DNA of 40,185 nt, taken from positions 1 to 40,185 of IMG/VR virus record IMGVR_UViG_3300020411_004483; one strand, 5' to 3'. The DNA is from a virus. The position numbers and the translations under genes were made by a program. Position 1 is the stretch's first letter, and every line of letters starts with the position of its first letter. The notes beneath the pieces are model-generated. The model saw only the letters and a program-made list of their open reading frames with translations. It had not been told where the DNA came from and ran no database searches. This document shows positions 16,101 through 34,191 of this stretch, one piece after another.

Positions 16101-18320
16101 AGATTGAGTGCTTTGGTTCATAAAATAAACAGACTGACCGTCGAGTTCGCTTCCATCTTGAAATGATGTCACCAAATCTAAGCCAAGCTCATCGCTATAA
16201 ATATTTACAGATACAACATCCATACCCCCTGTAAGCGTTAGCTTTGTATCAATGGTTGTTGATATGTCAATGACCTCATTGTGGTCATTAAAACCACTTG
16301 GCTTAATAGGACTTTGATCAGAAAATAGGCTGCGGCTTGGATACAGAGTTAGGTTTGTCCCCGGAATTCTTGCAAATTGTCCCAATTCATCAACAACATA
16401 TACCGCAAATTCAACAGATCTTGTATTATTATATAACTCTCTTCCACCTTTCTTAAATAGATCTGATAACTTTTCAGTTGAAAATTGCCAAACAGTAGGG
16501 TCTTCATCATTCTGACCAACGCCATCTACCTCAGACCATATGGCCGGTATCTGCCCGTCTACGTCCACCATAATATTTGGAGTAACAGATGCCAACACCT
16601 CAGATGCAGCAGTTGTATTGGGCTGATGAAAGAGCATATCATTAGCAGCGCTAGCCTCATCTCCATCTCTATATCCAATAAGAATTTCCGGCCGATTTAT
16701 CTCGCCATATAGTGCCGCTTGTTTTTTGATGCCGACCTTCGATAGCTTTACCTGGCCTGGAAAGCCAAGATTTTTAATAGGAATACCTCCAGCAGCGAAG
16801 CCAGGAATAATCATGCCGAGCTCAGCTCCAGAAGAGAAAGTAAGACCATTCACTACGTCAGATGAAAAAACACCGTTATTGGATGATGTTCCAAATAAAG
16901 GATCCTTGATCTGATCCTGCATGTAATCTATCCACTTGTCAAAAACATCTTCTACCCCTTCTTTTATAGCGGCATTTGAAACATCTACAATCCCAGCTTT
17001 CCCCTCGTCGGCAGGGTCCATAAAACATTTAGTCAAAAGAGGAGCTGTAAACAGCTCTATGCCATCGGATACTTCGTCAAAAGGCTTAGCTTTTATCTTA
17101 TTTTTTGATTCAAAAATTGGAGATAAAAAATATCTATAAGTGACCCCTTGTTTTAGCCCATCTTTAGTGAGAGTAATTTGCTCATCTTCAAAACCCTCAC
17201 CTGAAGAGTTTTTTACCAAATCATTATCTACCATCTCTGGGCACGGCGGGGGAAGATAATTAACTGCTTTTGCAGAATACTCAAGACCGTTCAATAATTC
17301 GAATGCAAGAGTTATAGTCTCTTCGTCTGCCGGGTTATCTTCCTGAGTAATATTATAAATGTTATCAGAAAAACCAGAACTATCCCTTCCAGATAGGTCC
17401 GGCATTTTAACATAAATAGTGTTACCAAGAGCTGTATAAAAGCCTATATCATTAACAACCCTGCCTCCGATTATAACGTCTTCATCAAGTCTAAATATAG
17501 GACAGATTTCCATTAAAAGCTTTGGAATAAGAGTATCTGCCGTAACTCCAGAGCCGGCCTTTGCCTCATCTAATGTTCCAGTTTCTGGATCAAGAACAAT
17601 CTTGTTTAACAATGACTCAAAAGTTTCTCCAGATAACCCTACATAGTTTTTCAGACCCGACTCTTCCGAATCTTTGTTTACAATTACTTCAAAAATCTTT
17701 TTTATAACATTTATAGGTATAAACTTAAAGTTACCCATAAGCCTAAGGCCAGAATATCTTTGATTATTCTCAAGCCCGGGATCTAATTGTGCCTGTAGAT
17801 CATCATGTGTTGCAATGGCTCCATCTCCAGAGACATAAGACGACATAAGCAGAGTAGGAACTCCTGCTCCATGATATTGGTCCAAAATAGACGGCATTGA
17901 AATAAGACATTTGTTTATCCTGTTTCTTGCCCCAATCAAATCACTTACGCTGGCAAACTCTTCGCTTCCTACTCCTGGAACCTTATTTTTTATATAGGTT
18001 TTTAATTTATTTATTTCTTTGTCATAAGTGCCAGAAAGGTTTGCATTCTCAGGGGCCTCTGAGTTTCCTGGCAGCGTATTTATGCTTGCGCTAGAAGGAA
18101 GAGCCAGCTTTACAATTGCCCCGCCAGACAGAGGTATTACCCCTGCAGTATCACTTGATTCCATTGGAAACAATACCTTTACCTCATCTACATCAATTGA
18201 CCTTGATGTATCAGAACTGGTAGATTCTCCGGGGAAGCAATTAACTTGAATTGTTGAGAATTCTTCTCTAGTTTTTATTGCACCAACTGCAAGTGGCAAT
18301 ATTTGTGATTTAAAACCCAT
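10182..18320 (-). CDS. Giant 2712-aa baseplate-cluster protein with hydrophobic membrane-like core
   Basis: A single uninterrupted frame encodes 2712 residues. I do not recognise the family. Visible parts: a beta-rich N-terminal half with FnIII/Ig-like stretches and a proline linker (LPPPPDAEV, about 785); an Ala-rich helical region (about 1283-1440) broken by a linker GGGGDSDSGGGG near 1365; a very hydrophobic run at about 1678-1757 long enough for three or four membrane helices, including FKVLLIPIKIIFCIIDVICA; one more at about 1795-1820 (ILTILALFLELLQLLFAF); a Trp-rich patch near 2030-2045 (IAWWWKILIFPLFF); and an acidic C-terminal third with several Cys. It lies between spike and gp25, 82 nt after the spike gene, with AAAGG as SD. 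A virion tail role is inferred from position. Membrane insertion during infection is my hypothesis; buried helices in a large assembly are the main alternative. Confidence 0.85.
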   Translation of the reverse strand: MGFKSQILPLAVGAIKTREEFSTIQVNCFPGESTSSDTSRSIDVDEVKVLFPMESSDTAGVIPLSGGAIVKLALPSSASINTLPGNSEAPENANLSGTYDKEINKLKTYIKNKVPGVGSEEFASVSDLIGARNRINKCLISMPSILDQYHGAGVPTLLMSSYVSGDGAIATHDDLQAQLDPGLENNQRYSGLRLMGNFKFIPINVIKKIFEVIVNKDSEESGLKNYVGLSGETFESLLNKIVLDPETGTLDEAKAGSGVTADTLIPKLLMEICPIFRLDEDVIIGGRVVNDIGFYTALGNTIYVKMPDLSGRDSSGFSDNIYNITQEDNPADEETITLAFELLNGLEYSAKAVNYLPPPCPEMVDNDLVKNSSGEGFEDEQITLTKDGLKQGVTYRYFLSPIFESKNKIKAKPFDEVSDGIELFTAPLLTKCFMDPADEGKAGIVDVSNAAIKEGVEDVFDKWIDYMQDQIKDPLFGTSSNNGVFSSDVVNGLTFSSGAELGMIIPGFAAGGIPIKNLGFPGQVKLSKVGIKKQAALYGEINRPEILIGYRDGDEASAANDMLFHQPNTTAASEVLASVTPNIMVDVDGQIPAIWSEVDGVGQNDEDPTVWQFSTEKLSDLFKKGGRELYNNTRSVEFAVYVVDELGQFARIPGTNLTLYPSRSLFSDQSPIKPSGFNDHNEVIDISTTIDTKLTLTGGMDVVSVNIYSDELGLDLVTSFQDGSELDGQSVYFMNQSTQSLTIRSTATWDAVSRNVGTFYMGLEASNGDVSPLKPFYIASPGTTGPELPPPPDAEVIIKKPFNFKVPKFGKGLHSLPVLMDGTSSNLIIKTRNKGIFQENNVLYAYIALVDDGAGKAESILKDFCFVGTDEVRSAGSVKINDSGDTANLLVPMALEYEFGQSDFSSITKRKASLKFPGSVGAGKNLSRLTEVVSAAGEASACIIITNFKWSGEDQALAEGQNYGVIPMGGQTRTVSRGEQVVSQPFSKPPHVLGLVAALPSSSGDARAATTIGGDDLDSIKKYLRPGLKRKLAKDDSSAEQRIIAGDALDHLAVVFSGAKEPRLSKRYKVYIGTKKLKKYRAGKLKYIGGNKILANFKNITEIKDEGWTDITIQKNDKRFKTSYDSTLWTRTTVYFDSEDVKDDGDGTPFLSTEDSVVLNCKGGDKQITQMVNEDGSTTGGIDMSTSIFDINPSPFFSYMPTISTSSSYIPGTDATDTKSYLSFGSPVKIMPSTKLVLGAKVPGDTAEVTRAVNLSDALVDPDTGFLKEEIIDVSTTGMVEPRFSPAELISQGTNAINELNDVAAAMNNAVEGGMELSAEAQAALDAWNAGGPQEEFENASNSLTEAMSGEEASAEALEIALSSGGGGDSDSGGGGWLADAAQAVDDFVADLNAAADAAEAAVAAVNDLANSLLALVDELSSIVQNMLDAASDALDALSSRPSDFTKVNLKYIYLKDQADLVPGTYRANSDDTEWQLTLTTKITQNAAIKFNVPEIVAVKKEGADDWYTRTGGSNGLRFGKLEITTDDRLTLKTIGTTLDTKFEVAGKRVESRYNSSSSGIFLDFDITIPNLSMIPAFGSSPCTKIAISNTNENRMRLGRTVGANEAVNIDDNWAKQLFGGNRSKSGAGSDIKEKIEKFFLKFTSVRLDKANVAKEFIQSFCDFSFHLTAELSLQLRNFKVLLIPIKIIFCIIDVICALLHPIRLAFAIIRLFLCLYDLILLLPPLSVPAMCLALLLHILELLLCVITKILSIITAINEISSAMSTAIDQKNYPSIVALEEAINEHLFSLEADLEVLEPILTILALFLELLQLLFAFPCKVGHDADEENCIDASMLAGLIVGKVAPFGRIEPDALLPLAQSYTRLPVSVTKSTGNSPPDKRDNKDDMDCKSSSDICNKLLAEGDFIVRAKDSGGARVSEPGTPGADLPGLRDNTTGELKTVQDGGFFAGDTTGAGTMERIDYPGLRFIADDSGDSDNYVNGDYIGGTGNRFDATFGLSFTRSTKAFSIFTGPDPRIVRFEFNEKAESSDIAWWWKILIFPLFFRKKLVDEIQTLDSPPMFLTEDSGNLIVDDTGASKDFISPIDGATGFLEAKGGGYQPKPLTVTIDLNQPGINETTLDAEFEPVTVTKTFGNIPMIALVDDSFNVYFVEPDGAEGGIKMNGNSIESINVKMINHPSAPKKKFGREDKQVYRDFIAISEKGRHSRISSDGITSGEKIIQAQANALYILGQLDGKQVEKTDGTTVSPADVPVYVTNGKTQTYGIGAEWTPYSGDDWAGSGTVVNVTGEADTDDGKDWKGAYYSDKFTDLPHPELGFAYDFSHGNKKEGNDIGEAIDNVKVFDFPRFYIVDMRQVADDIAAACGASMPAEMLMDLPGFDEDRDYGAEVITPVEDCLKAFLDYFKNEEPHPETGVPLGVIPMVRHHLENGEVWSKVPIVDDLIEPDGHFSSSIKGEYDTLVECINDAIDNSCEYTLNPLNTSFYLNDDEDDTDLPNFVNPEQADLKELAQITENWDTDLDGLPMVTGAMEYASGIGDLLTLESTKKAFVTLIPRDSYDDEMSEALDLTDKIKISFVVDETETGATLVPVNDGEEDLIVKDGTTYTAAIYTETPGKVVIRAEVCGVVIQAVTERGIQDSELQLDPSAVDCIDDAVSVDEDGQEIFAPGALMKVDRLLTILFTKTSGAGDKYGDDDRDLSAKSAKPGPQTFGTKLEN

Positions 18321-20890: not shown

Positions 20891-23800
20891 TCACCCTCCT
20901 ATCTCCGAAGTTAAAATGTCACCAGGAATGTCTATAACGCCAACCTCTATAGCGTTAATGTCACCAGTAAAAATATTTCCATGCGACACAAGAGCCTCTC
21001 TGATGTCCAGCCATGATTCCTGGCTTGGCCCGCCCTTGGGAAATATTCCCATATTTCCTTGCGGATCTATTTCATTTGAACTAATTGATAATGCCGCCAT
21101 TAATTCACGGTTTAAGCACTTTATTTCTCCGGCCGGATTTGATTCATCACTTTTGTCCAAGTAAACAGTTTGTAGAATTATTTTATTCTTTGGAATCGAA
21201 GTAACGGGCATATTGTTTGGAAGTCTCATTTGACTCAAACTCCTCGTTGTACCTATCGACCCGCCTCCAAACGCAGACCCTATTGATGTAATAGATGATG
21301 CAAATCCTTCGGCTAGGTCATCAGAATCTGTTGCACCGCCAGCCTGAGCCAACTGAGTTGGGTTTTGAAGCATAGAAGATACAACTTCCATTTTTTGAGA
21401 CACAACATTTACAGCGCTCATATCATTTCTATCCTTAACAAATCCTCTGACTAATATGTATTTTGATCCAACGACGCTGCCAGATAAGTCTGTCATCATA
21501 TTTGTAAATCTAATTTGATTATCTTTATAGGCCAACAGCTGTACTGCTGATGCACCTCCGGTTGGAAACACTAGACAACAATTGGGGCTTAGTGGCCTAT
21601 AGTTATCGTCTGCAGAAAAGCCAGTTCTATGAACAATCGGAGGATCTGTAAAGGACCCAACCAACTCTTGTCCAATTACGTCAAGTGGACTTGGAAGATA
21701 GTGTCCGGGAGGATGCCCATATCTTAGCCCAAGGGTTGTTGTAAATGTTGATCCATATTTAAACTGATGCCGTACGGAATCTACATAGTACAATAGGCCC
21801 GTTGCTTCAACATAAACTGTGTCTCCAGGCTGATAGAATTCGTTTCCAGCAACTGTTATTGAGCCTTTGTTTATATCGGCCTTTTGCAGAGCTAACTTTA
21901 ACATGGCATAAGGCCTGCACTGGCCTTCTACATCGCTTAGAAACGGATGATCTATATTAGTTGAGTTAAAGCCATACTGACGCCACATGTCAAAGTCTGT
22001 GGCTCCAGCCCAAAAGTATAGCCCATCTGCTCCAGAGTTTAACGACTGGCCCATTCCAAGTGGCGCATCTCCCTTTACTCCAACGGACGTATATGTCGGA
22101 GGAGATTCGGTAAATCCTGCTTGTATAAGCTTTTCATCCGTAATTATAAGTCTTTTTCCAGATCCATAGCCTAATAGATTTCGCGTATCATCCTGGATCA
22201 AGTGATCATAAACAGTTCCATCTGCACTAGATCCTGTAAGTATATCTATTGCGCTACTAGTTGCATTTGCAAGGCTCTCAAGAAAATCAACAGCACTTCC
22301 GTTTATCAGATCATCTGACCCTGCAGTTACCTCTATTGGATCATTTGCTCCGGTAAGCTCTCCACTGAGTACTCCCGTTATATCTTCTAATTCTTTTTGA
22401 TTTGCAATATTTGCCTGCAGCATAGATACATAACTATCTCTTTGAGATATCGTAGTTTTTATTTTATTTAATATTCCATTGGGCCCAGTAACTGCCGAAT
22501 CAAGATCTTCATGCTTCTTTTTGAAAATAAAATCTTTATATTGAAATCCTTTTGCCGCATCAATACCAGTCCCTTGGGCAGGGTCTAATCCAAACTGACT
22601 CTTAAAAGAGTCTCTTATTTCATTAAGATTATCTGCAGTAGCTATATCATAAGCAGGAGGCCTTACAGAGCCTCCGATGCCAGCGCTTGCTGATGCGGTT
22701 AAAATATCATTTAAAACACCCATCTCTTCTTGAAATATAACATCAAAAGTTCCAAGGAGAGTTTCTGTATCCCCATCTAAAATATCGCCTTTATTTCCAA
22801 AAGAAGCCGTTAGCTTTAGTCCGTTTCCAAACAGCTCGTTGTTTCTTTCTGTAATTGATCCAACTGAAGATGAATACTCCCTCTGGTTCAAAGACAGGCT
22901 TTTGGTTTGAGGGTCCGCACCACCTCCGAACAGGCCTCCGAGAAAGCCTCCTCCAGAAGATGGTATCTTTACTCCGAAAAATCTTAATGCATCAGGGCCA
23001 GAAAGAGTCATGTTTGGAATAAGAGTCTTGTCTGGATATCTGCCCATCATCAAGGACAGAAGTACAAGCTTTATGTTTAACATGTGAACTTGAGAATAAA
23101 GTGTTTCAATCCTAGTTTGAAATAAATTAGTTATAAAAGAAGGCATAATTTGCCTTCCAGAATCTTTTTGCATTCTTATAGATTCCTTCAAAATGGTCAG
23201 GGGAGTTCTGTTCCAAAGAGGAGGCCTGAATTCAAGGTGGCCCTGAGTATTGCAGAAGAATTCCATATCTAAAAAGTTTGCAGCAGCAACAGCTTGCTGA
23301 AAAACATTATCATAAGTTGCACTAAACCTTTTCCAATTTCCAGAGTTATTCATATTTAATATAAAAGGCCTAATATCTGCAGCATCATACTGATCTGATA
23401 CTATAAATAAATTTCTATCCCTATTCAGCCTGACATCTTCGATTCTTCTCTGCGCCCCAACAAGCATCATGGCTCTAGTTAAATCGTGATTTTCATTCTC
23501 GTCCCCAGACACTGGAAGTCCAGTACTTCCTCCAAGTATGTCTATAGATATTCCAATTTGATCAGCAGAGGACGCTGCTCCACCAAACTTTGTGCCTATA
23601 CTTACCTGATTCTCTATTGATTTATTTATTGTTTCTATTTCTGACTCAAGAGTTGCTATTATGCTATGTGGAGGGATCCCCGTAGTACTAAAACCAATTG
23701 ATTCTTGTGATTTATTAAGCTCATTTATCTTAGATCTCAAAGCAATCTTTCGCTGCTGTAAAGATCTAACTTGACTAGCTGCATTTTCTCTCATTCCAAA

Positions 23801-26191
23801 GTTTGCAATAATTTGCTCATTTGTCGCAGCACTAACGGACATCATTCTATATGGCTTGAAGTTTCCGTAAATTTCATTTTGTCTTCTTAGAGTCTGAAGA
23901 ACAGATGTGATGGGGTCTGTTTGAACCAATGTGGTTGAGGTTCTAGAGCTTATATTCTGAGCAGTAAATGCCTGCTCCATAAAAGACTGTATATTGTATG
24001 GCTGACCAACAATCAGGACGCTGAGTATGTTTGCCATATCTAAATTATTTAAAACACCAGCATGACTGCCATCTCCTGCGGGAGTGACACTATACTGCTC
24101 CGTAAAAGTCTCTTGATTTCTAGTGTTTTCTCCAATCGGATCAACCATGGTGAAGCCGCAAGTTGCAGTTATAACACCCTTCTTCCACCTATATACAAAG
24201 CCGCTCGGATGCTGCATAACCCTGCTTCCGGCAAGAGATCCAAATCCATTAAACTGATCTTGAAATAAGTTTCCTTCGTTAGCATTTTGTCCTGCTAAAA
24301 TTCCATCGTCATAGCTCAAAAGACCTGACTGAAGCAGTTGCTTATTTTCATACAATAAATCTGCTTCGGAAGATATTACCTGTCCTAACGAATCTGTTGT
24401 TAAATCGTATGGACTTAGAGGGTCCATAAGGATGCCCTTGGGATCCGTCATTGACGGCTGTGTAGCAAACTGACTCCACTTTAGCCAATTCTTATTAGAA
24501 GAGCATGAAATATTTAATGACCAAAAACCACCATTGTAACGTTGATCAATACTGTTTACAAACCCTCCAAAGGTGTGTATCATCCCAAAAGAATTATCTT
24601 GAAACGACCTTATCTTTTTATATTGATCAAAGGAGATCCCCTGATTTGTATATAGTTGATATTCTGCCTTTAAAATTATCTCGTCCATTTCTAAATATTC
24701 TTTATCAAAAGGAGAGTGTCCTGCTGAAGCGCTAAAGTTATCATCAGATGAAAAATCTTCAAATGCTGTATTTCCTCTTATGAAGAAGTGAACTGGATCA
24801 GGCGGATTAATTATAGGCTTTCCAAGGTAAAATGTACGCATTCTATCTCTAACGTAGTCCATATCTAAGGATCCATCCATAGACCCTAATCCTACAGACT
24901 CCATTATGGCCGAAGCTATAGCTCCTCCGTCTATTGGAGGCATTGTTCCTGACATCCCCTCTGATCTAAGCCCGCCATTTGCAAGATCGTTTAAAAGACC
25001 AAGGGTTCCATTTACAGCCTCCTCTACAGCATTATCTATATCATCTTCCAAAACAACACCTATTCTGTAGGGATACTCCAAAGTAAAATTTGCGTTTCCA
25101 TCATTTAAGTTTAAGGAAGACGAAAAATCTGTAAAGTTAGTAAACTCAATAACACCTGTGCCTGGACCTGTAGAATAGTTATCAACACTGTCTTGATCAA
25201 CTATCCATGTTGTCAAATAATTATCTGCAGAAAAAGCATTTCTTTTCAATATACTTGCTATATCTTGCATCATAAGATCATAGTTTGCTTGCGCCGCACC
25301 ATAGCTTAAGGCGTCACCTATGTCTGAAAACCAGTTTCCAGAAAACATATCATTTGAAACAGGAAGGTCAAAGCCCGCTTGTCCGCTAGACTGCTTTCCA
25401 TATTCTCCTTTGAACAAAGCTTTTTGGCTGTCTAAAACCATCTTCGCCTGAGATGCGGGAAGCGTTTTTATATAATCTCTGTTTGTATAAGGAGGAAAGG
25501 CCGTACCTCCAGAGTCTGCCCTTCTTGCGGTTGGGCCTTCTACATTTGAATTATTAAGAACCCCATCATCTCTTACATCTGCCATTTGAGATTCATTAAG
25601 AAAAATATATTGACCTGTTTTTACATCATAAACAGAGTATCCGCCATCAACTTGCATCCCGACATCTCTAACCTGATCCAGCCACATATCTAATCTTTTT
25701 TGCGCATACTCTTCCGCCGTATATTGCAAGTTATCAAGCTTTAAATATCTACCCTCTCTTAAGAATGATGACAGCAAATTCATGCTATACTGCTGATTTT
25801 TTGAGTAATAAGTTTCAAACTTAGTTAAGCTTTCATAGGCTCTAACTTGCTGCACTTTATATGCAAATAGCGCTTTTGTAGCACGTAGCAGCATCTTTTC
25901 TGTTTTGTCCATATAATTTATATTATTGGAAGATGCCAGGGATGAAAATGCCTTCTTTTTAACTAAAATTGTAGCTTCTGGAGCTTGTGTTATAACATTT
26001 CTAGAGTCAGGAGTAACAGAGTGAGCTCCGTTTCTATTTAAAAATATAGACGCACCAGTGCCTACCATAGACGGAGCATTGTGAGATAGCTTGTTAAAAT
26101 CTACATACAAAGGCGAATTGCCACTAGATATATCTTGCGCAACCTTATCAAGCGTTTGCCTTATATGTCTTTGAAAATTTTTTCTTCCCAT
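20891..26191 (-). CDS. Baseplate hub protein, gp27/gpD-like, greatly enlarged
   Basis: At 1766 aa this is over four times T4 gp27 (391 aa). Hub-like sequence is seen near residues 924-1000 (NVFQQAVAAANFLDMEFF, then LEFRPPLWNRTPLT) and near 1427-1503 (ITVAGNEFYQPGDTVYVEA, LYYVDSVRHQFKYGSTFTTT, LGLRYG), the strand pattern of the late-control-D/gp27 fold that joins tube to spike. The first 800-900 residues are not recognisable and include a helical N-terminus, FGGFVNSIDQRYNGGFW near 540, and a charged coiled-coil-like segment at about 797-867. A second charged helix lies near 1217-1265, and a Gly-rich loop (GGGFLGGLFGGGAD) near 1088. It starts 31 nt after the 338-aa gene with a modest AAAGG SD and is tightly joined to the spike gene. 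The hub call rests on the C-terminal half plus position. Confidence 0.8.
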   Translation of the reverse strand: MGRKNFQRHIRQTLDKVAQDISSGNSPLYVDFNKLSHNAPSMVGTGASIFLNRNGAHSVTPDSRNVITQAPEATILVKKKAFSSLASSNNINYMDKTEKMLLRATKALFAYKVQQVRAYESLTKFETYYSKNQQYSMNLLSSFLREGRYLKLDNLQYTAEEYAQKRLDMWLDQVRDVGMQVDGGYSVYDVKTGQYIFLNESQMADVRDDGVLNNSNVEGPTARRADSGGTAFPPYTNRDYIKTLPASQAKMVLDSQKALFKGEYGKQSSGQAGFDLPVSNDMFSGNWFSDIGDALSYGAAQANYDLMMQDIASILKRNAFSADNYLTTWIVDQDSVDNYSTGPGTGVIEFTNFTDFSSSLNLNDGNANFTLEYPYRIGVVLEDDIDNAVEEAVNGTLGLLNDLANGGLRSEGMSGTMPPIDGGAIASAIMESVGLGSMDGSLDMDYVRDRMRTFYLGKPIINPPDPVHFFIRGNTAFEDFSSDDNFSASAGHSPFDKEYLEMDEIILKAEYQLYTNQGISFDQYKKIRSFQDNSFGMIHTFGGFVNSIDQRYNGGFWSLNISCSSNKNWLKWSQFATQPSMTDPKGILMDPLSPYDLTTDSLGQVISSEADLLYENKQLLQSGLLSYDDGILAGQNANEGNLFQDQFNGFGSLAGSRVMQHPSGFVYRWKKGVITATCGFTMVDPIGENTRNQETFTEQYSVTPAGDGSHAGVLNNLDMANILSVLIVGQPYNIQSFMEQAFTAQNISSRTSTTLVQTDPITSVLQTLRRQNEIYGNFKPYRMMSVSAATNEQIIANFGMRENAASQVRSLQQRKIALRSKINELNKSQESIGFSTTGIPPHSIIATLESEIETINKSIENQVSIGTKFGGAASSADQIGISIDILGGSTGLPVSGDENENHDLTRAMMLVGAQRRIEDVRLNRDRNLFIVSDQYDAADIRPFILNMNNSGNWKRFSATYDNVFQQAVAAANFLDMEFFCNTQGHLEFRPPLWNRTPLTILKESIRMQKDSGRQIMPSFITNLFQTRIETLYSQVHMLNIKLVLLSLMMGRYPDKTLIPNMTLSGPDALRFFGVKIPSSGGGFLGGLFGGGADPQTKSLSLNQREYSSSVGSITERNNELFGNGLKLTASFGNKGDILDGDTETLLGTFDVIFQEEMGVLNDILTASASAGIGGSVRPPAYDIATADNLNEIRDSFKSQFGLDPAQGTGIDAAKGFQYKDFIFKKKHEDLDSAVTGPNGILNKIKTTISQRDSYVSMLQANIANQKELEDITGVLSGELTGANDPIEVTAGSDDLINGSAVDFLESLANATSSAIDILTGSSADGTVYDHLIQDDTRNLLGYGSGKRLIITDEKLIQAGFTESPPTYTSVGVKGDAPLGMGQSLNSGADGLYFWAGATDFDMWRQYGFNSTNIDHPFLSDVEGQCRPYAMLKLALQKADINKGSITVAGNEFYQPGDTVYVEATGLLYYVDSVRHQFKYGSTFTTTLGLRYGHPPGHYLPSPLDVIGQELVGSFTDPPIVHRTGFSADDNYRPLSPNCCLVFPTGGASAVQLLAYKDNQIRFTNMMTDLSGSVVGSKYILVRGFVKDRNDMSAVNVVSQKMEVVSSMLQNPTQLAQAGGATDSDDLAEGFASSITSIGSAFGGGSIGTTRSLSQMRLPNNMPVTSIPKNKIILQTVYLDKSDESNPAGEIKCLNRELMAALSISSNEIDPQGNMGIFPKGGPSQESWLDIREALVSHGNIFTGDINAIEVGVIDIPGDILTSEIGG

Positions 26192-26222: not shown

Positions 26223-27239
26223 TTAAGAACCTTTTTTGCTTTTTTCCCGCCTATTAACACCCAAGTCTCCATTGGACTCTCCTCCTTGGTCAAATGGGTT
26301 GAATTTAGACTTTTCTCCTGTTGAAGCATTAGGGTCATCAGGAGAGCTGTACATATTTTCATCTTTGTATATAAATGAAGAAAAATCATCTGTTTCAATG
26401 GGAAATGACAAATAGTTTACCTCAGGAAAAAGATTCTTAGACACAGAAGAAGGAGGTGCCATTCTCGTTTCTCCATCATACTCATAAGGATTTCTATGCC
26501 ACCTCATAAAGTTGCCTCTGTACCCTGTTCTTCTTGTGACTGTAAAACTTAAAGTATAAGTAAACAGGCCCTGCTCTTGTGCCGACTCTTTTACTGTAAA
26601 GTCTGTAAAATAACCTCTAAAATATTCTCCTTGATAAAACATATCTATATTTGTAGCAAGAGCGGCCATTGTTGGAGTTGATCCAAAGGCCCTCCTGTCT
26701 AACGAGCTTTGGCCTGCTCCTGAAAATGGATCTGTTATTATATCTATAGCATTAGAAAAACCATCTACAGCTCTAGAGAAGGCTCCTCCTGTTGCAACGT
26801 CTGCGATGGCGCCCAAGGTGCCACCTGCTCCAGAGCTCTCTTGTGCGGCAAGAGCAGACTCCGTAGCTGACTGTACAGTATTTTGAGCAATCTTTCTTTG
26901 CCTTTCGGCAAGAATCTCTCTCATCCTTATCTGCTCGTGTCTATATATGCTTCTTAAAATATTTATTCCTTCTATCCCAGAAGAGCCGGTAGTTCCTGTT
27001 ATGGATATTGTAGTAAGCTTTTCTCCCCAATACTGGACAATAAAGCCACCTTTTGTTTGATTGGCCTGAGTTATCTTTCCATCTGTTATATCAAATGATG
27101 TTGGATTTATATATAACTGTCTTCTAAGATGAGAAGAGGCTCCGTCATTAGAAGAAGAATATAAGTCGCTATCCGTTGTCAGTGCAGCCATATCAAGCGG
27201 CAAGAAAAAAACTATTGTTTGTCTACTTATCCTGGCCAT
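26223..27239 (-). CDS. Baseplate / tail-tube initiator-like protein
   Basis: A 338-aa protein between tape measure and hub. Residues about 40-95 contain INPTSFDITDGKITQANQTK and WGEKLTTISITGTTGSSG, then a helix IEGINILRSIYRHEQIRM, a pattern seen in tail proteins with a tube-like split beta-barrel that cap or start the tube. A Gly/Ala/Ser-rich stretch (about 110-175) interrupts the barrel. The strands resume near 195-250 (NIDMFYQGEYFRGYFTDFTV, FTYTLSFTVTRRTGY), and the C-terminus is polar and probably disordered. The ATG overlaps the tape-measure stop by one base (TAATG), with GGAGGAGGG upstream, so the two are translationally coupled. In T4 this place is taken by gp48/gp54 and in Bacillus prophages by XkdP-type genes. 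I infer a tube initiator or hub-accessory role; which one is unresolved. Confidence 0.62.
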   Translation of the reverse strand: MARISRQTIVFFLPLDMAALTTDSDLYSSSNDGASSHLRRQLYINPTSFDITDGKITQANQTKGGFIVQYWGEKLTTISITGTTGSSGIEGINILRSIYRHEQIRMREILAERQRKIAQNTVQSATESALAAQESSGAGGTLGAIADVATGGAFSRAVDGFSNAIDIITDPFSGAGQSSLDRRAFGSTPTMAALATNIDMFYQGEYFRGYFTDFTVKESAQEQGLFTYTLSFTVTRRTGYRGNFMRWHRNPYEYDGETRMAPPSSVSKNLFPEVNYLSFPIETDDFSSFIYKDENMYSSPDDPNASTGEKSKFNPFDQGGESNGDLGVNRREKSKKGS

Positions 27240-29215
27240 TAGGGTGTCCCTCCTCCGCTCTGAACTCTTCGTAGTTCATTAGATAATCCTATAAAGATCT
27301 CTCTTCCCTCATCCGTAAAACTTATGTCAACAGGCACTCTATATTCTGCCATTGCCGCTGCAAGTTGCGTTGCAATTGCTTGAGCAAATTCTGTTCTATT
27401 TGCAAAGCCGCCCTCTTGAAGCGTGGCCCTTGTAGCTCCTGCCGCAGCTTGCATAGAAACTGCCTCTATTCTTCTCGCCAAATCCTCCATCCCCATAGTT
27501 CTAGCTCTAGCTAGCTGTGGATCTACGGCAACAGAAGCCGTTCTGACCCCGGTATTGTCAGTAGTTCCGGATGAAGTTCTTCCCCTAAGGTATTCTAATG
27601 CATCCTCTGGCGGAAGACTTGCCCCCCTGGCCACTTCTGGGGCAGAAGGAAGCGTTGCATCCTCAGGCAAGTATTGGCGAATTCTATCCTCAACCCCCTC
27701 AAGAATTTCACTTGCAGTACCACCGGCCCCCTCTATTCTGCCTCTGATATTAAATCGGTCCATCGCAAGCTCTCCTGCGCGCCTTGGAGCTTCTATTAAA
27801 ATTCTATTTTGAGCAAAAAGCAAATCAACCTGTGCTCTTGCCAAGTGGCTTATTTTTTCTAAATTTGAAACAGTCTCATCTTTATTTTCCGTAGCTCTTG
27901 CAATTTGCTCATTTAAAATATCTGCCCTTTCACTATCTCCTGCGGCAGTAGCAGCCTCAAGCTCTGACAGAAGGTCTAACACTGCATTTTGCTGACCTAC
28001 ACCCTGAATATTAAACTGGCTTCCCAAAAGCTGCTGTTGAGTAAAGAGTTGTGCATTTCTGCTTGGATCTGCAGATGCGTCATCTAAGGTTGTAATTTGG
28101 CCTCCGCCAAATCTTGCGAGCATATCTCTCATTCCGCCTGCCAGCATAGAGGATAGCTCTCCTTGGTCGTCTGTATTTCTCATTGCTTGCTGCAAAGCAA
28201 TTCCTGACCCAAGCATCCCGCCCTGTTGCCCAAGATCTAAGCCTCCAGATTGCATTACCAGATATGCATTTCCATAATCACTAGCTAGATTGGCTAAAGA
28301 CTGAGAGAGCCCGGTTGTTGCAGTTAGTGCGGCTTCTATTGGAAGTCCTGTCCGCTCCATTACGTCGCCAAAGCCTCTTAGTATAGGCTCTCCAAACCTA
28401 GCATTTACCCCCATCAACATAAAGCCATGTGCAACACTATTCAGGGTTGATGCAACTTTGTCCATTGCAATACCTAAATCGCTACTCATATCAATGAAGC
28501 TTGCAAACGTTTCAACTGCATCTTGACCGCTCATAGCCTGCTGGTTTAAAAGCTCATTTAAAACCTTTGCGCTCTGTGTTTGATGCTGTCCTGCCGAAGC
28601 TCCAAGAGCATATGCTGCAGCCAAAACATTAGTTTCGCCCGCAGCTGTTGATACAGCCTCGTTAAACTGCTCCATTGTTATATTGGTGTTTCTCGCTTGA
28701 TCTGCAAAATGCTGAAGCTCATCTGTGTTTATATATAAGGCCTGACCAAAGTCTGACGCAGGAATCGACCTTAGCGCATCTCCAAAGCCTTTGGCTTCAG
28801 CTATTGTTCCTCCAAAGCGCTGATTAAGCTTGAGCATCGCCCGGTCATATTCCATATATTCCTGCGGAACGTCCAAGGCTATTGCTATATCTTCAAATCC
28901 AGAAACTGCCGTGTTAACTAATGCATCAAATGTCCGATTTAATGCACTTACTCCATCTGCAAAACCACCCACCAACGGGCCCAGGCCTGGGATAAGCCTT
29001 CCGACATCAGCAAGGGCACCCGCCGTTGTTCCGAGGCCATTCTTAAAAGCCTGTGCAGCCTCAGTTAAATCGGACAGAGATCCTGTGCTACTTCTTGCAG
29101 TTGCATCAAGAGTTCCAATGGCACGATTTGCATCCGCAATTCCAAGGGTAACATTTCGTACCGGATTCAAAAAAGCTTCTAACTTTTCTGTATAAGTATC
29201 TATCCAAGCTGCCAT
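27239..29215 (-). CDS. Tail tape measure protein
   Basis: A 658-aa, mostly helical, Ala/Gly/Gln-rich protein directly after the frameshifted chaperone gene, the standard place of the tape measure. It has heptad-like helices, a hydrophobic Gly-rich segment near residues 60-105 (LADVGRLIPGLGPLVGGFAD), a Gln-rich helical middle and a charged C-terminal helix. No peptidase motif is seen. By the usual rule of about 1.5 angstrom of tail per residue, 658 residues predict a tail near 100 nm. This is short beside the enlarged baseplate proteins around it. The start ATG lies 16 nt after the upstream stop, with AAAGGGAAAG as ribosome site. The assignment depends on position and composition, as tape measures share little sequence. 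Confidence 0.78.
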   Translation of the reverse strand: MAAWIDTYTEKLEAFLNPVRNVTLGIADANRAIGTLDATARSSTGSLSDLTEAAQAFKNGLGTTAGALADVGRLIPGLGPLVGGFADGVSALNRTFDALVNTAVSGFEDIAIALDVPQEYMEYDRAMLKLNQRFGGTIAEAKGFGDALRSIPASDFGQALYINTDELQHFADQARNTNITMEQFNEAVSTAAGETNVLAAAYALGASAGQHQTQSAKVLNELLNQQAMSGQDAVETFASFIDMSSDLGIAMDKVASTLNSVAHGFMLMGVNARFGEPILRGFGDVMERTGLPIEAALTATTGLSQSLANLASDYGNAYLVMQSGGLDLGQQGGMLGSGIALQQAMRNTDDQGELSSMLAGGMRDMLARFGGGQITTLDDASADPSRNAQLFTQQQLLGSQFNIQGVGQQNAVLDLLSELEAATAAGDSERADILNEQIARATENKDETVSNLEKISHLARAQVDLLFAQNRILIEAPRRAGELAMDRFNIRGRIEGAGGTASEILEGVEDRIRQYLPEDATLPSAPEVARGASLPPEDALEYLRGRTSSGTTDNTGVRTASVAVDPQLARARTMGMEDLARRIEAVSMQAAAGATRATLQEGGFANRTEFAQAIATQLAAAMAEYRVPVDISFTDEGREIFIGLSNELRRVQSGGGTP

Positions 29216-29231: not shown

Positions 29232-30142
29232 TTAATCTTCGGTTAGCTTTACAACACTAGATAGGTTGCCAGGCACTCTTCGGCTTCTTGCATCTTTTGA
29301 TATCCCTGTATTATATTTGTCTAAATTAGTATTTTTTCCTTTATTAAGAATTGAATCAAGCTCTTCAGTATTCTTGAATAATCCATCTCTAACGAATGTG
29401 TCAAACTCTTCATCATCCATAAATCTTCCAGACTCTTCTGCTTCTCGCATATCTCGAATCTTTCTAACCGCTTCTGAGTTTACAAACGAAGCTAGATACT
29501 CTACAAGGCCAAGATTGGTTTTGTAGTCATTTTCTTTCTCTTCTGCAATCATTAAGCCATACCAAGCCCACTGAACAGAGGTTATGTTTTGAATACGCGG
29601 ATCATCAACGGCACAGCCCCAGATCTTGCACATTTTCCAGCGTAGCCAACTTGAGGGCTCCGCGATTATGCTTTTAAATCATCAATGTCAAAAGAATCAT
29701 TTGCAGTCTTAACTAGGTCCTCATACTCTTTATGGAGAGCCTCTATTAAGTTTGCTTGCATTTTTAGCAAAACATGTATTCTTTTTTCCTCTATCTCTAA
29801 TGAGTCATCATCGCCGTCATATAGACTTTCAAGCGGGACTCCATTAACATGAGTAACAACATAAGCAAGAGTAGTCGGCTTTAGCTCCAGAACTCTACCT
29901 ACATCATCTATGTCCATAACTCTTCTAAGAAGCTTTCTTTGAGAATCTGTCGTTAAGGTCTCTAGAGCAAAGGTATATCCTTTGAAAGATACCTCTTTTT
30001 GACACTTGCCCAAAAATATTAGATCTCTAAGATCCGAAGGATCATTCTTTTTTTCTTCTTCGACAGATTCTTGCTCAACAACCTTATCCGCATTTCCCGT
30101 CGAAGAAGTTGGATGATTAATTGTAGCTGTTCTTTTTGGCAT
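29232..30142 (-). CDS. Tail assembly chaperone, -1 frameshift fusion (gpGT-like)
   Basis: A -1 shift at the T TTA AAA site (29672-29678) joins the 158-codon upstream frame to the downstream frame, giving an inferred 303-aa product (157 + 146 residues). After the slip, decoding continues from base 29672 as SIIAEPSSWLRWK and runs without a stop into MCKIWGCAVDDPRI to the TAA at 29232. The first in-frame ATG of the downstream frame (29633) lacks a convincing ribosome site, so independent translation is unlikely. In lambda-type tails the short and fused chaperones bind the tape measure and recruit tube subunits, and neither stays in the virion. The fused part carries W-rich and acidic segments (ITSVQWAWYGLMIAEEKEND), common in such T-like extensions. 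Annotating 29232-29633 as a stand-alone gene would be misleading. Confidence 0.85.
29640..29678 (-). promoter_or_regulatory. -1 programmed ribosomal frameshift signal
   Basis: The slippery heptamer T TTA AAA (29678-29672) is in the correct phase (GAT TTA AAA GCA TAA) two codons before the zero-frame stop. After an 8-nt spacer a stem-loop spans 29663-29640: GCG, G.A mismatch, AGCC, an 8-nt loop, GGCT, A, CGC. Heptamer, phase, spacing and stem all fit known -1 frameshift sites. The zero-frame stop falls within the spacer. Confidence 0.85.
29666..30142 (-). CDS. Tail assembly chaperone, short form (gpG-like)
   Basis: The unshifted product is 158 aa. It has a polar N-terminal tail (about 1-40), then LIFLGKCQKEVSFKGYTFAL and LTTDSQRKLLRRVMDID, a beta-hairpin-plus-helix pattern typical of small tail chaperones between tube and tape measure, and an acidic C-terminal helix ending in DIDDLKA. 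The frame can be extended to a TTG at 30157, but AGGAG (30148-30152) lies 5 nt before the ATG at 30142, and the TTG would place the SD inside the gene, so 30142 is preferred. It follows an intrinsic terminator, so it needs read-through or its own promoter. It is probably made in excess over the frameshifted form. Confidence 0.82.
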   Translation of the reverse strand: MPKRTATINHPTSSTGNADKVVEQESVEEEKKNDPSDLRDLIFLGKCQKEVSFKGYTFALETLTTDSQRKLLRRVMDIDDVGRVLELKPTTLAYVVTHVNGVPLESLYDGDDDSLEIEEKRIHVLLKMQANLIEALHKEYEDLVKTANDSFDIDDLKA

Positions 30143-30188: not shown

Positions 30189-30220
30189 AAAAAAAAACAC
30201 TGCAAAAAAGCAGTGTTTTT
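30189..30220 (-). terminator. Rho-independent terminator after the tail tube gene
   Basis: On the minus strand an 11-bp perfect stem AAAAACACTGC / GCAGTGTTTTT encloses a T6 loop and runs into nine Ts in total (30197-30189). It begins 17 nt after the tube stop codon. Stem, small loop and U-tract are all textbook. It separates the abundant sheath and tube from the low-copy chaperone, tape measure and baseplate genes. On the plus strand the U-tract is only five bases. Confidence 0.9.
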
Positions 30221-30237
30221 AAATTCATATGCTCTAT

Positions 30238-30879
30238 TTAATAAGCTGCATGTATTAGTCCGGGAAAGTCCAGAGACCCTCTGCGACCGGAAGTACCATT
30301 GTCTGCAAGCTGCTCTATAGCATCCACCTGTCTGTTTGCGATCTCTCTTCCACCGCCAGTTCCCTGACCTGCAGCAACAGGCGTTGTTACGCCGCCGCGA
30401 TGAGAGCTCATGTATTCTGCATCTAAGTTTGCATCTTCTGTTATTAGATACGTGTCCGAACTATAGGTTTTGCTAAGACTCTTAAACCAGCAGTTATGAT
30501 AAGTTGTAACAATTGCATCGTCTCCGCTTCCAGAAAACTTATCGAAAACGACTATGTCGAACGGTATTCTTTGAGCGCTTATTTGCGTAAAGCCTCTTGA
30601 CATGGATTCTGGTAAAGATAGTCCGTCAAACATCATTCTTTTCACCGTAAGAGACACTGTTGTTGCAGAGTTTGGAACATATTCTATAATTCCATCCGTT
30701 CCTACTTCTGTTATCGACTTATTAGTTCGTTGCTGCTGAACAGTGAATGACTGAACCGCTCCAACGGGTTCATCATTAACATATATCAAAATCTGAGTTG
30801 ATAAACTGGCCCTTGTCTTGGCGCCTTCAACATCAATGCTGTCTAAAATACTTCCTGTATTTGGATATTCTGCGGCCAT
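30238..30879 (-). CDS. Tail tube protein (gp19-like)
   Basis: A 213-aa protein that should polymerise into the inner tube through which DNA passes. Residues about 28-95 show the tube/Hcp-like barrel pattern: ILIYVNDEPVGAVQSFTVQQ, a loop ITEVGTDGIIEYVPNS, and TTVSLTVKRMMFDG; later strands include RIPFDIVVFDKFSG and YHNCWFKSLSKTYSSDTYLI. The last 45 residues (Gly/Arg-rich) look flexible. T4 gp19 is 163 aa, so it is slightly long. It lies 15 nt after the sheath gene with AGGAG as SD, the canonical sheath-tube pair, and a strong terminator follows. High expression is expected. Confidence 0.9.
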   Translation of the reverse strand: MAAEYPNTGSILDSIDVEGAKTRASLSTQILIYVNDEPVGAVQSFTVQQQRTNKSITEVGTDGIIEYVPNSATTVSLTVKRMMFDGLSLPESMSRGFTQISAQRIPFDIVVFDKFSGSGDDAIVTTYHNCWFKSLSKTYSSDTYLITEDANLDAEYMSSHRGGVTTPVAAGQGTGGGREIANRQVDAIEQLADNGTSGRRGSLDFPGLIHAAY

Positions 30880-30894
30880 GTTTTATTCTCCTAA

Positions 30895-33800
30895 TTATAT
30901 GATTCCAACTTCAATATCTATAAAGACATAGTTTATTGGGTAAGCCGGTGTGAACTGCAAGAAGACATTGATCTGTCTTGGATCAACCTTGTCTTGTGAA
31001 ACTTTAACATTTTTATACGCAGTTACAAGCCCCTGTTGAACCAGGCCGTTCATTACAGATCCCGTCCTGTTTGCAACCAGCGTGTTTGTATCTGCGCTCT
31101 GAACTCCGCCGATAAAGCCTTTTAGAGAACTCCTAAGAACCTGCTTTACCTTGTCTCTGATGAACATTATTGATATTTCTTCGTCTTCAACAAAACCTGA
31201 GTTACTGGTCGTTCTTCCTGCAAGAACCTTTCCACCGCCCGTAACAGGCTGAAGAACAGTAGCTCCAACGTTTCCTAGTGAATTCAGAACAACAGGTCTT
31301 TGAACTTTGGATCTTAAGATTGAGAATCCAGAAAGAGACTTGTTTGTAAGTGGTATTGCTACATTTTGCTTGCTAGACAGCCATCCTGCCGCACAAGCTG
31401 CTACATAAAAACCATCTAAGTTTATGTTTGTTCCATTAACATTGCGAACAATCTCATCTGGCCAGAAGTAAACGCATCTGTTGCTTGTGTAATTGTCACT
31501 AAGCTTAAAGTTAACAAGATCTTCAACATTTTGATCTAAGACCTCCGATGCATCATCTCCCTGCACTCCCTCTAAGATTCCTATATCTTCTACGGCAACC
31601 TCTTCCGAGCCAATAAGGGCTGCGGCAGTAACTCCTGCAATGGAGCCGATAAAAGCCATTCTTTCTTTTCTATTTGCAACAGAACTCATGTTTTCACAGT
31701 GAGATACTGCAGCTCTAAAAATAGATGACTTTGCAGTCTTTGGAAGAGGAACTACCATCTGTGCGTCAGCAGCCTCAAGCTTTTCAAAAGCATTGAACCA
31801 ATTTGTATCAAAATAATCTGCGTCATTTTCATCAACATAAGTTATTTTTAAGCCGTCACCCTCTTGAAGCACACCGCTCTCTACAATATCTCTATGAAGC
31901 AATAGTGCAGCATCTACATTTGTCGTATCACCAACATCTTTTATAAAGAACTGTACATCCTTATAAGAGCCCGCAGAAAAGGATAATGTTGCTCCTTCTG
32001 GATATGCCTTAACGTATGCCTTTTTATCAGAAGCAACTGTCGTTATAGTAAGCTCTGGATCAAAACCCGAACTTCCAAACAATTGCGTTGAAATATCTGC
32101 CTTAGAAGTATATACAGCTCCACTCGATGGATGCTCCATGCTTGTGATTACAATTGTTGTCTCATTCGCAGTAGACTCCATACTTCCGTCAAAATCAAAC
32201 TCTGTAGATTGAAAGTAATCTCCTGTGGAATCTGACCCAAGATCTCCATCTACTCCGTCTCCAAGGATATCAAACCCTGTGTCAACAATTGTGTAAGAAA
32301 ATGTAAAGTCAGAGCTAGAAATAAAGTTTGTTTGCTGAGTTTCTGATTCTAACTGAGAATTGTAGAAATCAACCTTATTTGGGAAAATCTGTGTTTCAAT
32401 TCCCTTTCTAACTACGAAAAGATTAACTCTAGTGTCTGAGTCTGGCCTTCCGTTTCTTATTCCTGTTATTGGCCTTGGAATTACAAACCTGAGATCATCA
32501 ACTTCGCATGCCGAAGCAGATGCTGTCCCGCTGCTATAACATCCTGCAAAGCCTCCATTTCCAAGAGAATCCTTTTCTTCTAACAAGTATGAAGAAGACC
32601 TTCTTGGTATAGCCGGCTTACACTGTATGGCAAGAACTCCAGGTGCGCCATTTTCCATAGCCATCTGTGCGCCAAGTGCAAGAGTGTTGTCTTCACTTGG
32701 AGACCCATGCTTTGCAAACAAGGCATATGCATCAGTAAAAAACTCAGGGTCATTTAAATCTGCATCGTAAATGTATTTAACCTCTAATGAGTCGCCTCTT
32801 CCAAGGGCTCGTCCAGATACGTCAACATAAAACTTGTCGCCAACTTCGAATGGGGTTGTTGATTCGTTTATGCCCATAAGAAGAATTCCATTTGTTTCTA
32901 AGAGATAAACCGTTAAGTCATCATCAGCTATTCCGTCTGAATAATCAGATTCTGATAAATCTGGGAAGCCTGTAGTGGAATCTCCATACTTGTGAATTCT
33001 AGCTCTTCTTGAGGAAGTAACCTTGGTTATAACATACCTTCCCTCTGCATCTCCAGAGCATACAACGGCAACTTTGCCTACGTCTTCGCTCTTAAAAACG
33101 CCTGGAGAAATAGGATCTCCATTTGCATCATGATCTTCTAAAGCTCCATCGATCAAAACGTTTGTAGCCCTGACTTGCCACAAAGCAGTTGCTGATCCTG
33201 ACACCGGGAGAGAGTCTGTTGTTAAAGTTATGGTTGAGAAGTTTGAATCAGTAGAGTCTGCAAGAGAACCCATGGCAATAGATTTAATTTGATATGCCGT
33301 AGCGTCTACTATCAAGTAGTCTCCTGCAATTGCCTGACCATGAGATATAAGGTCTGCTTCAACTACAAACTTATTCGTTGTCAATGCTGTTGTATCTCCG
33401 GTTGCAACAGTTGCCGTACCCTCTCCAACCGTTTGATCCATAACAACAAGCCCATCTGCAACCGGATCTACATTTCCACTTACTGCGCCAGTTGTAATCT
33501 TGTGATAAGAGCTTGAGAAGGTCCTAGCGTTTCCAGATGCGTCATAAATCTGACCAGATTTGGATCCAACTGCAGTAAATGATGCATTTCCAGCAATTGG
33601 GTTTCCAGAAGAGTCCCTCTTAACCGCAACACATCTGACCGTCCATCTTTCTGGAGGAGCAGTAGAGTCTATAACCTGAAGGGTGCTTCCGCCTGCACCA
33701 GACGAAGTACCGCAGGTCTCCTCTACTATAAATCCATCTCCAACGTTCGAAGAAGATGCAGAATAGCCATTTCCGCCCTGATCTTTAATATAGGCGCCCT

Positions 33801-34191
33801 GAAGCTCTATGGCTCCTTTTTTATAATCTAATCTGTAATCAAACTCTGTAGAGAAGCCTGTAGTATCCCAAAGGTTATCTGAGGAGCCTACCGTGTCTTG
33901 AAGTCCATATAGAAGAGATCCATTTAGGCGAACTTCTGTTCTGCCGCTTACAACTGGAGAGTTTGGTATCTTAAAGTACCTGCTATCTCCAGTTCCTGTT
34001 GGACTATGAGTGGTGTTTCCATCAGCTCCTCCTCCAGCAGCGGAGTCAACAAGAGTTTCCTCCCTAATTCCTTCTCCCATAATACATGCGATTCTTACCC
34101 CACCAGGGATTGAAACGCCTCTTGAGATAACTCTATCTCTGGCAAATGCTCCTGGTTGAACAAAACCTGAAATTCCGGGTATGTTAGCCAT
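30895..34191 (-). CDS. Contractile tail sheath protein
   Basis: The sheath polymer contracts to drive the tube into the cell. The N-terminus (IPGISGFVQPGAFARDRVIS, then VSIPGGVRIACIMGEG) and the last 350 residues match sheath style: AAVSHCENMSSVANRKERMA, a domain with NVEDLVNFKLSDNYTSNRCV and FYVAACAAGWLSS, then NKSLSGFSILRSKVQRPVV, EDEEISIMFIRDKVKQVLRS and the closing strands INVFLQFTPAYPINYVFIDI. The core is split by about 650 residues of beta-rich insert (about 55-740), giving 1098 aa against 659 in T4 gp18. The insert probably decorates the outer tail surface and carries FDYRLDYKKGAIEL near residue 115, like bead motifs in the 1421-aa wedge protein. It has the best ribosome site seen (GGAGG) after a 70-nt AT-rich leader, suiting an abundant product. 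Confidence 0.93.
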   Translation of the reverse strand: MANIPGISGFVQPGAFARDRVISRGVSIPGGVRIACIMGEGIREETLVDSAAGGGADGNTTHSPTGTGDSRYFKIPNSPVVSGRTEVRLNGSLLYGLQDTVGSSDNLWDTTGFSTEFDYRLDYKKGAIELQGAYIKDQGGNGYSASSSNVGDGFIVEETCGTSSGAGGSTLQVIDSTAPPERWTVRCVAVKRDSSGNPIAGNASFTAVGSKSGQIYDASGNARTFSSSYHKITTGAVSGNVDPVADGLVVMDQTVGEGTATVATGDTTALTTNKFVVEADLISHGQAIAGDYLIVDATAYQIKSIAMGSLADSTDSNFSTITLTTDSLPVSGSATALWQVRATNVLIDGALEDHDANGDPISPGVFKSEDVGKVAVVCSGDAEGRYVITKVTSSRRARIHKYGDSTTGFPDLSESDYSDGIADDDLTVYLLETNGILLMGINESTTPFEVGDKFYVDVSGRALGRGDSLEVKYIYDADLNDPEFFTDAYALFAKHGSPSEDNTLALGAQMAMENGAPGVLAIQCKPAIPRRSSSYLLEEKDSLGNGGFAGCYSSGTASASACEVDDLRFVIPRPITGIRNGRPDSDTRVNLFVVRKGIETQIFPNKVDFYNSQLESETQQTNFISSSDFTFSYTIVDTGFDILGDGVDGDLGSDSTGDYFQSTEFDFDGSMESTANETTIVITSMEHPSSGAVYTSKADISTQLFGSSGFDPELTITTVASDKKAYVKAYPEGATLSFSAGSYKDVQFFIKDVGDTTNVDAALLLHRDIVESGVLQEGDGLKITYVDENDADYFDTNWFNAFEKLEAADAQMVVPLPKTAKSSIFRAAVSHCENMSSVANRKERMAFIGSIAGVTAAALIGSEEVAVEDIGILEGVQGDDASEVLDQNVEDLVNFKLSDNYTSNRCVYFWPDEIVRNVNGTNINLDGFYVAACAAGWLSSKQNVAIPLTNKSLSGFSILRSKVQRPVVLNSLGNVGATVLQPVTGGGKVLAGRTTSNSGFVEDEEISIMFIRDKVKQVLRSSLKGFIGGVQSADTNTLVANRTGSVMNGLVQQGLVTAYKNVKVSQDKVDPRQINVFLQFTPAYPINYVFIDIEVGII

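Follow-up and report, generated by a model that had tools for sequence, protein, structure and literature searches.

The window, by which we mean the whole stretch of DNA analyzed here, consists of 40,185 nt (positions 1 to 40,185 of IMG/VR virus record IMGVR_UViG_3300020411_004483) from an uncultured phage. Reading of its ORFs placed all of the long ones on the minus strand, and each window feature described below lies on that strand. A tail sheath gene (30895..34191, 1098 aa, phrog_2839) is followed by a gene matching the phrog_985 virion structural proteins (30238..30879), a tail tube candidate whose name is inferred from its position next to the sheath. Directly after these two genes comes the junction studied here, which begins with a 158-aa ORF (29666..30142) for a G-type tail assembly chaperone, as judged from its predicted fold and the PHROG matches of its relatives. 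The next ORF beyond the junction (27239..29215, 658 aa) is only weakly tape measure-like, matching phrog_1272 at an E value of 0.011 and Pfam TMP_3 below the cut-off, and is considered a tape measure candidate since it also occupies the same place as gp183, annotated "tapemeasure," of Bacillus phage G. On the evidence of its sheath gene, the phage is contractile-tailed. Elsewhere in the window, a Baseplate_J protein is encoded at 4272-7601, and two very long ORFs at 10182-18320 (2712 aa) and 20891-26191 (1766 aa) had no Pfam match at an E value of ≤0.001.

On the minus strand, the 3' end of G reads GAT GAT TTA AAA GCA TAA. It contains the slippery heptamer T TTA AAA (29672..29678), in phase with the 0 frame of G and located 10 nt before its stop, and the TAA stop itself (29666..29668) is the second codon past the slip. 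An 8-nt spacer, GCATAATC (29664..29671), separates the heptamer from a putative stimulatory hairpin composed of the 5' arm GCGGAGCC (29656..29663) and the 3' arm GGCTACGC (29640..29647), which form seven Watson-Crick pairs and one G·A mismatch around an 8-nt loop. RNA folding recovered this hairpin at −10.1 kcal/mol; its support comes from the group of relatives, and it is weak in the window alone. Past the slip, the −1 frame is open up to the stop at 29232, and this T extension (29232..29672, 146 aa plus stop), defined by reading frame and alignment, would yield a fusion of 157 + 146 = 303 aa. A gene caller would report a T ORF of 133 aa beginning at an ATG (29232..29633). The first-pass annotation had described a heptamer in the right phase, an 8-nt spacer, a mismatched 7-bp stem-loop, a 0-frame stop two codons after the slip, and a −1 frame that stays open into the next ORF, and all of these elements were recovered at the positions given above; the fusion of about 303 aa that it had proposed is correct as a reading-frame length.

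By itself, this anatomy is only suggestive, because TTTAAAA is common in the window (28 matches versus 20.4 expected by chance) and many shuffled sequences match the stability of the hairpin, with 31 of 200 dinucleotide shuffles folding at least as well. Among synonymous recodings, 40 of 300 were at least as stable, a longer fold of the junction (86 nt) carried no signal (z of 0.05), and a search of Rfam gave no match at the site above gathering scores.

Single-protein scans of IMG/VR viral contigs with G or with T returned no relatives, and the sheath and tube were therefore used as bait. Further loci were obtained from IMG/VR with a T profile and then with the sheath and tube of the relatives; the full set of 28 T sequences proved too diverse to be scanned as one profile, so a 14-member subset was used. 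With G and T as tblastn queries, matches were obtained in a single isolate, Bacillus phage G, represented by two records; scans of bacterial and archaeal genomes, including one with the 14-member T profile, found no relative. The collection held 171 loci including the window, and L001, a copy of the window, was removed. Twenty-two of the 171 were excluded because G, T, or both were missing, and the 149 loci kept were reduced to 63 distinct and then to 62 nonredundant junctions, including those of the window and phage G. Since the bait proteins came from the group itself, these loci are related rather than independent. Their contigs reach 335 kb, and 371 other distinct ORF ends from the same loci served as controls. 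For the 20 excluded loci with neither G nor T, the contig ended no more than 1,086 nt from the tube match. The sequence was inspected for three of these (L006, L015, and L037); L006 shows the start of G at the end of its contig, and in L015 a different ORF follows the tube. An extra ORF, sulfotransferase-like by eye only, lies between the tube and the G start of L006 (11912-12973), after which the contig ends. The other two excluded loci were L077, which has T only and, at the start, AAAAAAA plus a hairpin, and L114, with G only on a contig that stops short of the junction.

T was in the −1 frame relative to G in all 62 junctions, although in L097, an exceptional locus discussed below, the two do not overlap. 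An in-phase heptamer was found 7 to 10 nt before the G stop in 61 of the 62 junctions compared to 4 of the 371 control ORF ends, and it is this position at the gene end that is beyond chance. The heptamer was TTTAAAA in 18 of the 61 loci, AAAAAAA in 29, AAAAAAC in 12, and AAAAAAG in 2, so that 43 fit AAAAAAN. The codon whose last base opens the heptamer (the donor codon) encoded D, F, L, A, or N in the TTTAAAA group and ended in T in 18 of 18 cases, and in the AAAAAAN group it encoded V, I, L, or S and ended in A in 43 of 43; across the G genes as a whole, third bases were A in 38% and T in 35%, and Lys codons elsewhere in G were AAA in 61%. The alignment of homologues that the first-pass annotation had suggested, looking for a conserved heptamer among varying codons, was thus favorable, as the amino acid of the donor codon varied and its last base was fixed. 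On a FastTree phylogeny of G plus T, a Fitch count gave four changes, which we read, as a sketch, as three switches of heptamer type plus the change in L097. Two of the 18 TTTAAAA loci also hold AAAAAAA (T TTA AAA AAA), and they look like intermediates linking the two heptamer types.

We then considered whether T could be a gene in its own right, with translation starting at ATG 29633 by reinitiation or coupling after the G stop and with the heptamer being incidental. Such an ATG does exist in the window, 35 nt past the start of the G stop codon, and L097 shows that both ORFs are able to exist as separate genes. However, the column of this ATG contained M in only 1 of 62 sequences, and in 55 of 61 loci there was no ATG, GTG, or TTG in the T frame ahead of a conserved Trp. 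In the alignment, the conserved residues R11 and W12 lie upstream of the window's T ATG, and in the model of T the first helix spans residues 6 to 18, so that a start at M14 would cut it. No Shine-Dalgarno (SD) match of at least 4 nt was found upstream of ATG 29633, in agreement with the earlier remark that the second ORF lacks a convincing SD of its own, while the G start in the window (ATG 30142) has AGGAG 5 nt upstream and most G starts carry an SD. On these sequence grounds, and L097 apart, T does not stand as a gene of its own in this group, because its ATG is not conserved, no earlier start is available in 55 of 61 loci, and the conserved sequence and helix begin upstream of it. Translation from an own start would also leave 61 of 62 heptamers unexplained, and we regard it as very improbable.

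The hairpin downstream of the heptamer was compared with synonymous recodings of the T frame. Its mean z was −3.65, with 54 of 61 loci below −1.64, while four control windows further along T had mean z values of −0.92, −0.17, 0.00, and −0.41, with 16 of 61, 4 of 60, 4 of 60, and 12 of 60 loci, respectively, below −1.64. The recoding null is slightly liberal, because the control windows average below zero, but the difference from the hairpin is still large. The loci that fell short of −1.64 were the window (z of −1.16), L021, L029, L039, L008, L002, and L080; the hairpin of the window is among the weakest of the 61, with only those of L021, L002, and L080 below it. Sorting by eye gave four hairpin classes. 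Class A (44 loci) has an 8-nt loop and the core GGAGCC/GGCTCC, class B (8 loci) has GGGTCC/GGACCC, its 3' arm lying several bases further on, a third class (5 loci) has AAAGCTCC/GGGAGCTTT with the 3' arm further still, and the fourth (4 loci), which contains phage G, is weak. In class A, 83.3% of cells were paired in the true register compared to at most 55.1% when the arms were slid, and in class B the values were 97.5% and at most 55.0%. Compensatory changes were found at three pairs in class A and two in class B, although in class A a +2 slide matched the true register in changes on both sides (12 versus 11 cells and 4 versus 3 pairs). These comparisons support the hairpin well as a genuine group feature, weak as it is in the window itself. 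Since the classes differ in register, the slippery site appears to have stayed fixed while the register of the hairpin changed. A stimulatory RNA structure downstream of the slippery site is optional in the lambda-type G/GT family.

This conservation of the hairpin beyond coding need fits ribosomal frameshifting and bears on a further explanation, in which the fusion would arise by transcriptional slippage on the A run and not by slipping of the ribosome. A run of seven A's is indeed present in 29 of the 61 loci, plus the two with the double site, but the window has only AAAA, and in the 12 AAAAAAC and 2 AAAAAAG loci the run is 6, in a process that usually needs longer runs. We consider this slightly less probable still than an own start for T. 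The notion that the split is an artifact of sequencing or assembly, or what is left of one decayed gene, which could be entertained for a single contig of uncultured origin, is refuted by the homologues, as the same arrangement was found in 61 of 62 nonredundant junctions, on many contigs as well as in the isolate phage G, and its probability is negligible.

The gap between the tube candidate and G contains a terminator-like hairpin (30193..30220), and such a hairpin was present, by a fixed criterion, in 59 of the 62 loci. In tube-G gaps of up to 300 nt, L097 excluded, a hairpin of at least 8 pairs was found in 54 of 56 compared to 0.4 expected from shuffles. No terminator-like hairpin was found in any of 62 loci over the 100 nt preceding the tube match, or in any of 58 within 97 nt past T. 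The three misses were L059 and L096, whose hairpins by eye fall just short of the criterion, and L097. Separately, L078, L092, L122, L155, and L161 have tube-G gaps of 732 to 999 nt, so that something has probably been inserted there.

L097 (2441-3316) is the one locus that departs from the common arrangement. It has the gene order sheath, tube, G, T, next ORF, and its G and T are clear homologues of the others (E values of 4.7e-27 and 4.1e-23), but it has no heptamer and no overlap, and the T frame is closed before T. Its tube-G gap is 12 nt without a hairpin, and its G-T gap holds a terminator-like 13-pair hairpin and a T run, followed by the ATG of T. A search of phages with the T of L097 gave no relative. 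Translational bypassing was considered for this locus, which has a GGT before the G stop and another in the T frame, and was dismissed as coincidence. L097 branches first after phage G on the tree of G plus T, and this position suggests that the frameshift was lost in its lineage. Homologues with a disrupted heptamer or separated ORFs had been named by the first-pass annotation as evidence against a frameshift; such a case exists, but once, and is read here as a lineage loss, with the other 61 of 62 junctions carrying the heptamer. One possible model, which we put forward tentatively, is that tail stoichiometry is set in two steps, by attenuation at the tube-G terminator and then by frameshifting, and that in L097 the terminator moved to the G-T gap and replaced the frameshift, leaving T to work unfused, at a low level set by transcription. 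That a terminator took over the G:T ratio in L097 is offered as a hypothesis from one contig. Among the titles and abstract openings listed in literature searches, none gave an account of the frameshift of this group or of a conserved tube-chaperone terminator.

The identity of G as a tail assembly chaperone was supported by several lines of weak to moderate strength. Among 28 G relatives, 14 matched PHROG tail assembly chaperone family 2992 and 13 matched family 2792 (E value of ≤0.01), although the window's own G matched no PHROG family. The AlphaFold model of G (mean pLDDT of 79.7) had the HK97 tail assembly chaperone 2OB9 as its first Foldseek match (E value of 0.26) and YqbN (3KLU) as its seventh (E value of 1.5). 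A second comparison with the PDB gave 2OB9 a Z of 7.6, in the middling range by that tool's own scale, and 3KLU a Z of 7.1, with the next match at 4.2. The best viral model match was gp181 of phage G (E value of 3.6e-7). PHROG scans of T yielded no meaningful family. The PHROG matches of the relatives, the likely chaperone fold, and the synteny with phage G agree with one another.

Taken together, the heptamer, frame, and hairpin of the relatives and their chaperone matches strongly support the lambda-type G/GT −1 frameshift that the first-pass annotation had proposed, and we infer that programmed −1 ribosomal frameshifting very probably yields, from one start, both G (158 aa) and, as the minor product, a GT fusion (303 aa). 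Most ribosomes would stop at the TAA and release G, and a minority would shift from T|TTA|AAA to TTT|AAA immediately ahead of the stop and produce GT, helped by the hairpin 8 nt downstream of the heptamer. If the lambda model carries over, G and the G portion of GT would coat the tape measure protein, the T part of GT would recruit tube subunits, and the ratio of G to GT would matter for assembly. G/GT frameshifting is well known in tailed phages, and the main interest here is the comparative series and L097. The comparative evidence extends tail chaperone frameshifting to many uncultured phages with contractile tails, a large group related to phage G in which gene callers will miss the predicted 303-aa product. 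The group also provides a natural series for the evolution of recoding, in which the function is fixed but the slippery site is of two kinds, with T TTA AAA AAA as a double-slippery form, the hairpin varies in register, and the frameshift has apparently been lost once.

Several known systems can be compared with this one. Eggerthella phage LE2-3 (LE23_86/87) and Gordonia phage Pupper (gp117/118) are distant, with G proteins similar to that of L097 at E values of 1e-3 and 4e-3, respectively. Pupper gp117/118 is annotated as joined; the LE2-3 genes are annotated as two separate coding sequences, and as the tail assembly chaperone gene ends in CTA AAA AAA TAA (L172:1860-1872), LE2-3 may carry an unannotated frameshift. 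According to excerpts of PMC7302621, some Microbacterium phages (cluster EA) have separate chaperone ORFs without an evident frameshift, so a split of the L097 type has a precedent, although these are different phages and the excerpts mention no terminator between the two ORFs. The closest isolate is Bacillus phage G (Donellivirus gee), whose gp181 and gp182, about 21 to 31% identical to the window proteins, are homologs of G and T, likewise in a −1 relation, that immediately precede the tape measure gene, with a terminator-like hairpin between the preceding gene and G as in the window. It differs in having AAAAAAC 7 nt before the stop instead of TTTAAAA, a longer T (251 aa past the stop versus 144 in the window), and a weak hairpin (z of 0.15). 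Both proteins are annotated as tail assembly chaperones, with gp182 joined from two pieces; the claim that a standard gene caller would report two genes at the window's junction holds, but in phage G the joined product is already annotated. The arrangement in the window resembles that of lambda gpG/gpGT, with two ORFs in a −1 relation before the tape measure gene, a candidate in the window, and a predicted short product plus a frameshifted fusion. The likeness is drawn from arrangement; the phage of the window is contractile-tailed, unlike lambda, and has a different slippery site, that of lambda being GGGAAAG. Excerpts of PMC5009743, which cites the gpG/gpGT studies (Levin 1993; Xu, Hendrix, Duda 2004, 2013), describe the lambda mechanism as binding of the tape measure protein by both G and GT, with tube subunits recruited through the T part.
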